24,029 nt of DNA from a virus: positions 1 to 24,029 of the IMG/VR virus record IMGVR_UViG_3300017726_000081. One strand, written 5' to 3'. Below are positions 145 through 2,052 of this stretch, piece after piece. A program made the translations under genes and the position numbers. The notes under the pieces are model-generated. The model was not told the DNA's origin. It saw only the letters and a list, made by a program, of their open reading frames with translations, and did not search any database. The first letter of the stretch is position 1, and the number at the start of each line of letters is the position of its first letter.

Positions 145-337
145 AACGTCTCCTTCCAAATAAAGTTCTCCAGCACCAGCTTCTACCAATACTTATTACT
201 GTAAATATAACAGCTATATGAAAACTCTCCCATACTGTTGGATACATACCAAAATACGGAAAAATCCAAAGCTGTATTAATGTTGATAAAATTAGCCCGC
301 TACCAACGTCTATACAAGTTTCAAATAAGTTTCTCAT
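128..337 (-). CDS. Small DUF7220-like membrane protein
   Basis: This 69-aa protein has two hydrophobic stretches (about residues 10-28 and 36-52) separated by a Phe/Pro/Tyr-rich turn (FPYFGMYPT), then an Arg-rich tail (GRSWCWRTLFGRRR). The order 'TQ-like segment, FPxFG, second hydrophobic helix, FTxxSIxRS, RxLFxRR' matches what I recall of the short DUF7220 family found next to phage nucleic-acid genes; that match is from memory. Its start ATG overlaps the stop of the methyltransferase as ATGA (334-337), so translation is probably coupled. It is likely an inner-membrane protein with the basic tail in the cytoplasm. Its role is unknown. Confidence 0.7.
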   Translation of the reverse strand: MRNLFETCIDVGSGLILSTLIQLWIFPYFGMYPTVWESFHIAVIFTVISIGRSWCWRTLFGRRRYGKRA

Positions 338-1335
338 TGTAAAGCTTTCATTATTGATCTTCCGACTTCTTCTGCAATTTTCGGGACGATAGCATTGCCC
401 AATCCTCTAAGTCTGTGTGCCCTGCCGGGTACCCCATTAGCCACTCTACCCACATCGGGTTCAGAGAGCCAGTCTGTTTCCCGCAATGTCCAGCTACGAC
501 TTCCTCCAAATTTGATTTGTTTCTGTTTGCTAGTTTCTCCCTGTTCTTCTCTGTTATATTTGGAAAAACTTTGTTTGCTCTCGGAGTCGGCCACATTAGA
601 TCTGGATGCGCTACTTGATCGTTGATACTGATTGGTAATTTCTTTTCTAGTTTCATCTTCATTCTTTTCTCTGATGCTGGACCTCTCATGCAATTCGCGT
701 CTGGAGTTCTCCATAGTCTCATCGTCTCTGGATCTACTTGTTCTCTCAGGTTCGAGGGTCGTGTTCTTCCTTTTCTCTGTCCTGTCATCAATTTTATTGT
801 TCCCTCTTTTGATCTTGGAGGTAAGTGATCCATTGTGTTTGGAGTAGCCCACAATCCAGACTCGCTCTCTTTTGTGCGGGGCACCGACGCCTGCAGCTGG
901 AATAATAAACGTTTGGATTTCGAAGCCTTCACTTTCCAAGTCAGCGCATACTGTTTCGAATACCATGCCGTCTTGGATGTTAATAATACCTCTGACATTT
1001 TCTGCAATAATGAAGGTGGGTTGGACTTCTTTAATGACTCTAAACATTTCTGGCCAGAGATATCGATCGTCATTAGTTCCTTTTTGTTTTCCTGCAACAC
1101 TGTACGGCTGGCAGGGAAAACCACCTGTGAGTATATCAATTCTTCCATGTGTTTTTTTAATTTCTTTCCCTTCACACTTTTTAATGTCATTATATATCTT
1201 AACCCCTTTCCAATGTTTTTGCAGCAACATTCGACAATACAATTCTTTTTCACAGAATGCTATTGTTTTAAAACCTGCTTTTTCAAGACCAAGACTAAAT
1301 CCTCCAATACCACTAAATAAATCAAGATGGTTCAT
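334..1335 (-). CDS. DNA (cytosine-5) methyltransferase
   Basis: This 333-aa protein carries the C5-MTase motifs in order: motif I DLFSGIGG (residues 5-12), motif IV GGFPCQPYS with catalytic Cys75 (71-79), motif VI ENV (112-114), motif VIII KRERVW (155-160), and motif IX/X RLRGLGNAIVP (308-318). It should transfer a methyl group from S-adenosylmethionine to cytosine C5, probably protecting phage DNA. Residues about 165-285, where the target-recognition domain normally lies, are very hydrophilic and rich in Arg, Ser, Glu and Lys, while the +1 frame over the same DNA looks protein-like (see 351-1253). Its start lies inside the lipoprotein gene (14-base overlap) and its stop overlaps the next start as ATGA. 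No linked endonuclease is seen, so it is probably an orphan enzyme. Target site unknown. Confidence 0.95.
   Translation of the reverse strand: MNHLDLFSGIGGFSLGLEKAGFKTIAFCEKELYCRMLLQKHWKGVKIYNDIKKCEGKEIKKTHGRIDILTGGFPCQPYSVAGKQKGTNDDRYLWPEMFRVIKEVQPTFIIAENVRGIINIQDGMVFETVCADLESEGFEIQTFIIPAAGVGAPHKRERVWIVGYSKHNGSLTSKIKRGNNKIDDRTEKRKNTTLEPERTSRSRDDETMENSRRELHERSSIREKNEDETRKEITNQYQRSSSASRSNVADSESKQSFSKYNREEQGETSKQKQIKFGGSRSWTLRETDWLSEPDVGRVANGVPGRAHRLRGLGNAIVPKIAEEVGRSIMKALQ
351..1253 (-). CDS. Overprinted second reading frame inside the methyltransferase gene
   Basis: A 300-codon open frame lies entirely inside the C5-methyltransferase gene, one base out of register on the same strand. Its translation is not random-looking. 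It has LTWKVKASKSKRLLFQL (residues 104-120) followed by PRT, then three spaced W-x-T-P boxes (WATP 135-138, WRTP 181-184, WPTP 221-224), then SLNPMWVEWLMGYPAGHTDLE near the end. From memory, the same pattern occurs in phage proteins linked to cytosine methyltransferases; I could not check this by search. It may be made by internal initiation or by a +1 shift from the methyltransferase frame. No strong ribosome-binding site decides the start; the family-like part begins near residue 62, so the true start may lie downstream of 1253. A possible role is target recognition for the methyltransferase. Moderate confidence that it is translated. Confidence 0.45.
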   Translation of the reverse strand: MKKNCIVECCCKNIGKGLRYIMTLKSVKGKKLKKHMEELIYSQVVFPASRTVLQENKKELMTIDISGQKCLESLKKSNPPSLLQKMSEVLLTSKTAWYSKQYALTWKVKASKSKRLLFQLQASVPRTKESESGLWATPNTMDHLPPRSKEGTIKLMTGQRKGRTRPSNLREQVDPETMRLWRTPDANCMRGPASEKRMKMKLEKKLPISINDQVAHPDLMWPTPRANKVFPNITEKNREKLANRNKSNLEEVVAGHCGKQTGSLNPMWVEWLMGYPAGHTDLEDWAMLSSRKLQKKSEDQ

Positions 1336-1447
1336 ATTGACCTTTTAAAATTTGATTTAATATGGTTGTGTAAGGATTAAAGTTGTAGTCTTTTGCACAC
1401 CCAGACAAACCTATCAATACAACAATTAGGACAATAATATTTTTCAT
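1322..1447 (-). CDS. Tiny lipoprotein (41 aa)
   Basis: The reading frame encodes 41 aa starting MKNIIVLIVVLIGLSGCAKD. A two-Lys-free short basic start, a hydrophobic core (IIVLIVVLIGL) and the lipobox LSGC with Cys17 indicate a signal-peptidase-II lipoprotein whose mature form would be only about 25 aa. The start overlaps the stop of the upstream oxygenase as ATGA (1444-1447) and the stop lies 14 bases inside the methyltransferase, so it sits well in the operon. Function unknown. Small phage lipoproteins can be outer-membrane spanin subunits or exclusion proteins, but no partner spanin was seen beside it, so this is not assigned. Confidence 0.7.
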   Translation of the reverse strand: MKNIIVLIVVLIGLSGCAKDYNFNPYTTILNQILKGQYEPS

Positions 1448-2052
1448 CTAATATTAAATTCTTTTGATTCGGTTTTATTTAACTTAAAAAAAGAAGGTAT
1501 AAAATTTATTGCTAAAGATTTTCTAGTATATTTATTATTATTTAATTTAACTTGGTGTTTTAAATAAGATGGGAAATATATTGCATAGTCGTTTTCCATA
1601 CTAAATACATCACTCGAAGCATTCATATAATTATATTTTGATGGTTTGATTTGTATCATGTGATTCTTTTCATGTTCAAAACCAATTTTAGATATGCCTT
1701 CATTTTTAAAATAGTAAACACAACTATATAAACAATTTGCGTGGTTATGTATGGAAGATAACATATTTTGTTCTGTCTTTGTAAACCAAGATGTAGATAT
1801 TTTACAATTTATTTTATCATAATTTAAAACATCATTTTTTAAAACATTTAATTTTTTTAAAAATTTATCTTGTATTTTTTTATATTTATCTAAAACATTA
1901 ATATCCAAAGAAATTTTCGTAAAACAATTACTATTCTGTGTTGTTTTCCATTTTTGTTTATTGTATAAATCTAACATAAAATTTTCATCAATATCCATTT
2001 TAATTTTCATAACAGTATCAGGAAATAAAGTATGTATAGTAGGTTTAATCAT
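1444..2052 (-). CDS. 2OG-Fe(II) oxygenase-like protein
   Basis: This 202-aa protein fits the phage 2OG-Fe(II) oxygenase family close to Pfam 2OG-FeII_Oxy_5. The iron-binding region is IHNHANCLYSCVYYF (H102 and H104), corresponding to the usual 'HxH...SGVYY'. The second half has YAIYFPSYLKHQVKL with distal H166, then R177 in YTRKSLAINF, the expected 2-oxoglutarate-binding Arg. Such enzymes use Fe(II), O2 and 2-oxoglutarate to hydroxylate a substrate; the target here is unknown. A weak AGGA lies a few bases before the ATG. It is 8 bases after the helicase stop and overlaps the lipoprotein start as ATGA. It is one of six complete members in the window. Confidence 0.8.
   Translation of the reverse strand: MIKPTIHTLFPDTVMKIKMDIDENFMLDLYNKQKWKTTQNSNCFTKISLDINVLDKYKKIQDKFLKKLNVLKNDVLNYDKINCKISTSWFTKTEQNMLSSIHNHANCLYSCVYYFKNEGISKIGFEHEKNHMIQIKPSKYNYMNASSDVFSMENDYAIYFPSYLKHQVKLNNNKYTRKSLAINFIPSFFKLNKTESKEFNIR

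Follow-up and report, generated by a model that had tools for sequence, protein, structure and literature searches.

A phage C5-cytosine methyltransferase very likely encoded in two pieces by overlapping frames of the same strand

Introduction

C5-methyltransferases are built from a large domain, comprising motifs I–VIII together with motif X, and a small domain that holds the recognition domain and motif IX; enzymes split between motif VIII and the recognition domain are able to reassemble (PMC3404938, PMC5944983). Two-chain enzymes have been described: M.EcoHK31I (YGGCCR) consists of a large polypeptide with motifs I–VIII and X and a small polypeptide with motif IX, whilst M.AquI (CYCGRG) carries motifs I–VIII on one chain and the distal parts on the other (PMC3404938).

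The locus described here lies within a window of 24,029 nucleotides, the whole stretch of DNA that was analysed (virus record IMGVR_UViG_3300017726_000081, positions 1 to 24,029), where a C5-cytosine methyltransferase frame (‘alpha’) has a second frame in the +1 register (‘beta’) running through it on the same strand. In 1995, Lee et al. reportedly found that the gene for the large polypeptide of EcoHK31I also contains the coding sequence of the small one, read in another frame. The multispecific C5-methyltransferases of SPbeta-group phages are single chains whose main frame holds several exchangeable recognition cassettes of ~40 residues.

The architecture of our locus matches that of M.EcoHK31I, a likeness drawn from its description, in that alpha also holds motifs I–VIII and X and the small chain is nested in the other frame; it is best called a new, widespread variant of a principle that is not in itself new. 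The two systems differ in that the predicted recognition domain of M.EcoHK31I is on its large polypeptide (PMC3404938) whereas here it would be on the second frame—which we take as the carrier, in place of alpha, because the corresponding stretch of alpha is under no visible selection—and in that the system of the window belongs to a phage family with predicted exchangeable cassettes. M.AquI is resembled by a set of relatives (L188, L216, L220, L221, L317 and L319) rather than by the window itself, which has motif X on alpha and one gene inside the other instead of two side by side; equally, motifs IX and X are not found together on the small chain in the window, but are so found in L188, L216, L220 and L221. 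As in the SPbeta group, the modules of the window family (median 43 residues) are predicted to be exchangeable cassettes, the difference being that they occupy a second, overlapping frame.

In Paenibacillus larvae phage Bloom and Escherichia phage K1H, each of the two frames bears the annotation DNA methyltransferase; the annotations of phrog_1008 (the phage family to which beta belongs), of the P. larvae phages and of K1H state no split enzyme, recognition role or selection analysis. Overprinted phage methyltransferases were not found in the literature searched, weak evidence of novelty given that subscription papers were mostly outside its scope.

Results

The locus and its second frame

A sequence-only reading of the window had described a +1 frame, open for 300 codons, inside the methyltransferase gene, and we see that this frame is indeed there (Table 1), along with W-x-T-P boxes at the positions it had given (WATP at 840-851, WRTP at 702-713 and WPTP at 582-593) and a late box, LNPMWVEWLMGYP, at 426-464, overlying EPDVGRVANG of alpha at 433-462. 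The low-complexity stretch that it had pointed to in alpha is equally apparent: residues 167-286 are rich in S/R/E/K/T/N, and just 15% are hydrophobic as against 44% of residues 1-165.

The methyltransferase is adjoined by a gene for a putative 2OG-Fe(II) oxygenase (1444-2052, minus strand; PF13759, E 5e-10). Two long antisense open reading frames also lie over the motif region of alpha, at 835-1320 (161 codons) and 872-1348 (158 codons) of the plus strand; these may be a product of sequence constraint.

Table 1. Features of the methyltransferase locus, in window coordinates
Feature	Position	Strand	Evidence
Alpha ORF, C5-cytosine methyltransferase frame, 333 aa: motifs I–VIII, shadow, motif X	334..1335	-	PF00145, E 3e-57
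Alpha residues 1-165, large catalytic domain, motifs I–VIII	841..1335	-	phmmer, hhalign coverage
Alpha residues 167-286, shadow of beta, low complexity, predicted disordered	478..837	-	composition, model, invariant columns
Alpha motif X core, RLRGLGNAIVP	382..414	-	L312, G313, N314 and P318 invariant in 90 alphas
Open +1 frame as first noted, 300 codons, GTG start, nested in alpha	351..1253	-	
Beta, likely coding part of the +1 frame, 279 aa, ATG 1190	351..1190	-	phrog_1008, E 2e-28
Weak Shine-Dalgarno-like AAAGGGG, 12 nt upstream of ATG 1190	1203..1209	-	sequence
AAGGA, 4 nt upstream of the alternative beta ATG at 1073	1078..1082	-	
Dual-coded zone 1: beta 40-113 (MTIDISG...LTWKVKASKSKRLLFQL...PRT) over alpha motifs IV–VIII	852..1073	-	
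Beta, predicted recognition cassette 1 (WATPNTMDH...)	714..851	-	module type common to 76 modules
Beta, predicted recognition cassette 2 (WRTPDANC...)	594..713	-	module type common to 48 modules
Beta, predicted recognition cassette 3 (WPTPRANK...)	471..593	-	module type common to 15 modules
Beta motif-IX-like segment SLNPMWVEWLMGYPAGH, dual-coded with alpha EPDVGRVANG	417..467	-	

The longest stop-free +1 run in the alpha gene extends to 302 codons. When the gene was resampled synonymously with the phage’s own codon usage (2000 trials) the run averaged 60 codons and reached at most 144; permuting the gene’s own synonymous codons (2000 trials) gave a mean of 110 and a maximum of 259, and in 11 other genes of the window the +1 runs span 31-48 codons.

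Alpha is a catalytic large domain

Alpha matches PF00145 and carries motifs I, IV (PCQ), VI (ENV), VIII (R.R) and X (GN). A recognition region and motif IX of its own are absent, as judged by phmmer, hhalign, an alignment of 90 alphas and a structural model that is disordered at this point. The phmmer matches to HhaI and HaeIII cover residues 1-167 only, and hhalign to canonical phage and plasmid methyltransferases covers residues 1-165; the 90 alphas have no invariant column in the interval from 158 to 301 (W289 and E292 are the nearest to be almost invariant), followed after residue 301 by R305, R308 and then the L-GN-P of motif X.

In the AlphaFold2 model of alpha, pLDDT exceeds 90 over much of residues 1-165, drops to ~40 at 176-286 and climbs to as much as 97 in the motif X helices; the model aligns to M.HhaI from first to last residue (Z 21, 200 residues). 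As modelled, alpha is the large domain, in which a disordered loop replaces the small domain.

Selection on the two frames

Selection was mapped with codon alignments of 34 loci, giving 342 pairs that share ancestry and whose rates are to be read as a pattern, not as independent tests. Working along alpha from its N-terminus, we see that codon position 3 is the most variable over residues 1-90, the pattern of an ordinary gene, and that change at this position is suppressed at residues 91-150; codon-position rates place both frames under selection at approximately residues 91-165 and 286-315. Residues 166-255 carry the pattern of the second frame, with alpha position 1 (beta position 3) the most variable and alpha position 3 (beta position 2) the least (0.450/0.127/0.051 at residues 181-195), and the alpha pattern is back at residues 316-330, where codon position 3 is again the most variable.

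Since position 3 of alpha is position 2 of beta, nearly every change that is silent in alpha alters beta, and suppression of synonymous change in alpha is thus direct evidence of selection on the beta protein. A depression at synonymous sites, the check suggested alongside the original description, is clear: alpha-frame synonymous change falls from 0.3-0.4 to 0.00-0.05 over much of residues 163-204. The suggestion that the two frames are constrained in turn needs amending; both are under selection but they do not alternate throughout, the layout instead being one of two dual-coded zones and one zone in which the second frame alone is selected. Between the dual-coded zones, the alpha reading is a mere open, predicted-disordered shadow.

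Separate clades repeat this pattern: beta position 3 is the most variable across the recognition region in 10 of 12 (GC 0.45-0.62), and the first dual-coded zone recurs in 12. Purifying selection on both frames within the overlap, the criterion for overprinting, is found in the position rates, in synonymous change and across the clades.

Conservation of the arrangement

A scan of viral contigs yielded 587 relatives, of which 80 were kept; two further scans, together with phage and plasmid records, brought the set to 234 loci, and 314 in all were assembled from viral contigs, phages, plasmids and bacterial genomes. In 311 of the 314 (231/234, plus 80/80 loci from bacterial genomes) a relative of beta is read in +1 with respect to the methyltransferase, as it is in the window, and the frame stays open in relatives down to ~30% identity, as real coding had been expected to require. 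Identity in beta is similar to or above that in alpha (90 versus 83% in L002; 52 versus 44% in L049). The same arrangement is present in gene 58 of phage N15, Escherichia phage K1H, Mycobacterium phage Nitzel, Microcystis phage Mel-JY01, Acinetobacter phage ABMM1 and others. Truncated or rearranged pieces excepted, beta was not found apart from the methyltransferase frame in any of the 314 loci; the exceptions are L207 (frame broken, the start of alpha fused to beta), L071 (at a contig edge), L190 (rearranged) and L222, a truncated remnant with recognition region, motif IX and motif X in one frame.

Several loci show peculiarities of their own. Beta extends ~390-510 nt beyond the alpha stop in L046, L050, L058, L059 and L080, giving a C-terminal extension of ~130-170 residues that has no Pfam match. 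In L036 (2995-4365, plus strand) a block is inserted between the recognition cassettes of beta, with the alpha frame still open; it contains a possible helix-turn-helix (HTH_28, a weak match at E 0.1). Motif X is in the alpha frame of L243, L294, L101, L137 and L213, separated from motifs I–VIII by a stop in the shadow, such that alpha as read is without motif X; this may reflect sequencing error or decay. In the deposited sequence of L084 (uncultured phage KT997847) the motif I start of alpha and the rest are in different frames, with a shift near 1900-2040 and beta intact. Lastly, L318 (Streptococcus phage Javan355; 1595-2101, plus strand) has a different long +1 frame (...SLSAILEENVPEEFFLSQ...; phrog_16143, annotated DNA methyltransferase), overlying a canonical single-chain C5-methyltransferase with its own recognition region, IX and X; it is possibly a second, unrelated overprinted family.

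Split relatives place beta between motifs VIII and X

In the intact relatives L188, L216, L220 and L221, motif VIII is followed by only a few more codons of alpha before its stop, whereupon a single beta frame runs through the recognition region and LNPDWVECLMGFxIGWTD to a motif X of the GNAVVP type; Gordonia phage Jumbo and Mycobacterium phage AbbysRanger are split in the same way. The betas of these two phages are clearly homologous to the beta family of the window (98.6%, E 5e-16) and have a motif X that aligns to the canonical one (E 0.014). Beta is likewise joined in frame to motif X in L317 and L319, and for that of L188 there is a match to phrog_363, a methyltransferase family, at its C-terminus. 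Because split relatives share the frame of motif X with beta, beta occupies the normal position of the recognition domain and motif IX; and because their alpha stops after motif VIII, the shadow of alpha is dispensable.

Cassettes and a motif-IX-like end in beta

Beta falls in a phage family, phrog_1008, annotated only as DNA methyltransferase. It has no match in Pfam or NCBIfam, nothing meaningful in the PDB by sequence, and no fold match in the PDB with a low-confidence model (pLDDT 66, pTM 0.37) in which residues 1-40 fall below a pLDDT of 50; the rows used for structure prediction came from viral contigs.

The C-terminus of beta, SLNPMWVEWLMGYP, is spaced like motif IX of HhaI, RKLTPRECARVMGYP, and hhalign of beta to canonical methyltransferases picks out exactly this segment, at an E of 0.45 that is not significant alone. 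Each beta has mostly 1-5 W-x-T-P boxes, with a median module spacing of 43 residues. When the modules are grouped by single-linkage clustering at 50% identity, type 0 has 135 occurrences, at all positions, and is a loose type as a consequence of the method; module types recur in differing orders, with type 1 (76 occurrences) having 7 different left and 15 different right neighbours. To judge from sequence, the W-x-T-P modules resemble exchangeable recognition cassettes, each of which would read a DNA sequence.

On these comparisons, target recognition by the second product, as had been proposed, is the best-supported reading, with beta at the canonical place of the recognition region and motif IX and its putative cassettes swapped between genomes. 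Beyond that proposal, the second frame has a motif-IX-like end that is absent from the main frame, which would make the enzyme a split one with a known precedent.

Where beta begins

The product had been taken to span 300 codons from a GTG at 1253; it is shorter than this, second-frame selection being visible only from about alpha codon 91, and a start at ATG 1190 (279 aa) or ATG 1073 (240 aa) is likelier, placing the beginning of beta some 21-60 codons further in. In most related loci an ATG stands at the place equivalent to 1190, ~31-40 codons before a conserved SG motif and often with AAGGAG or AGGAGG 9-12 nt upstream; synonymous change dips locally at alpha residues 37-54, coinciding with the Shine-Dalgarno and ATG of these relatives. 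An internal Shine-Dalgarno and ATG pair in the +1 frame is present in 92 of 185 loci as against 37.7 expected from synonymous resampling, the loci being related and the counts therefore not independent. Conservation of the start codon is not strict, and in the window the Shine-Dalgarno is weak or oddly spaced.

The AAGGA-ATG pair at 1073 was considered as a universal start and set aside, as several loci have no start codon there. With selection beginning near alpha codon 91 and residues 1-40 of beta poorly modelled, the choice between 1190 and 1073 is uncertain, and the residues before beta 40 are perhaps unimportant. In either case beta would be made from an internal start of its own.

Discussion

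Our data argue strongly for a single C5-cytosine methyltransferase that is encoded in two pieces by two overlapping frames of the same strand, the second of which very probably provides the DNA-recognising half of the enzyme. Alpha would supply AdoMet binding and catalysis (motifs I–VIII) as well as the motif X helices; the ~110 codons bridging these two parts are no more than beta read through in an open frame, with predicted disorder. Beta, beginning at an internal ATG, would form the small domain, made up of a segment for docking, the arrayed W-x-T-P cassettes for target recognition and the motif-IX-like segment. The two chains would then assemble as a heterodimer, alpha bound by beta and DNA recognised by beta, into a working enzyme that protects the phage DNA.

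Other explanations for the second frame can be weighed against this. Biased codon use does lengthen +1 frames, as the mean for permuted codons illustrates, and a long frame might in principle arise through chance or codon composition alone; the observed length, however, went unreached in 2000 trials under either model, and hundreds of loci from different phyla retain the frame together with the signature of second-frame selection, such that simulation and conservation already refute this explanation. It is improbable, though less starkly so, that beta is a real overprinted protein acting outside the enzyme—a regulator, an anti-defence protein or some other phage factor that arose inside the gene. 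The failure to match any Pfam family or fold is compatible with such a role, but beta, truncated pieces aside, accompanies a methyltransferase frame throughout the 314 loci, is fused in frame to motif X in the split relatives, and is paired with an alpha that has neither recognition domain nor motif IX.

Programmed frameshifting into a single enzyme, by a +1 shift after motif VIII and a return to alpha for motif X, would fit the order in the DNA, which is exactly I–VIII, recognition region, IX and X; split relatives would also need one shift only. In the window, however, two opposite shifts would be required; the alpha ends of the split relatives differ, with no common slippery sequence seen; and internal Shine-Dalgarno and ATG pairs are in excess. 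The ~75 codons leading up to the supposed shift are, moreover, dual-coded, and this is explained only if the two frames are translated separately. We consider frameshifting very improbable, and retain the two-chain enzyme as the preferred explanation.

A broader proposal, on which we are evenly divided, is that the locus represents a large and ancient family of phage methyltransferases that keeps its specificity array in a second frame: the cassettes would recombine freely, with the main frame serving as a passage to motif X, and the nested genes would yield rapidly changing, possibly multiple, specificities.

Hundreds of phages and bacteria preserve the arrangement, usually under the annotation of a single gene, and the overlap is maintained in phages and prophages of Bacillota, Pseudomonadota, Actinomycetota, Bacteroidota and Cyanobacteria. 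If our interpretation is true, a long same-strand overlap encodes two domains of one enzyme, the seemingly featureless variable region of many phage methyltransferases is explained, and prediction of specificity moves to the other frame. Cloning of the annotated frame may then carry beta unnoticed, and codon-optimised synthesis would destroy it. Given that close, non-overlapping relatives exist, the family would also offer a natural case in which to ask why genes stay overlapped.
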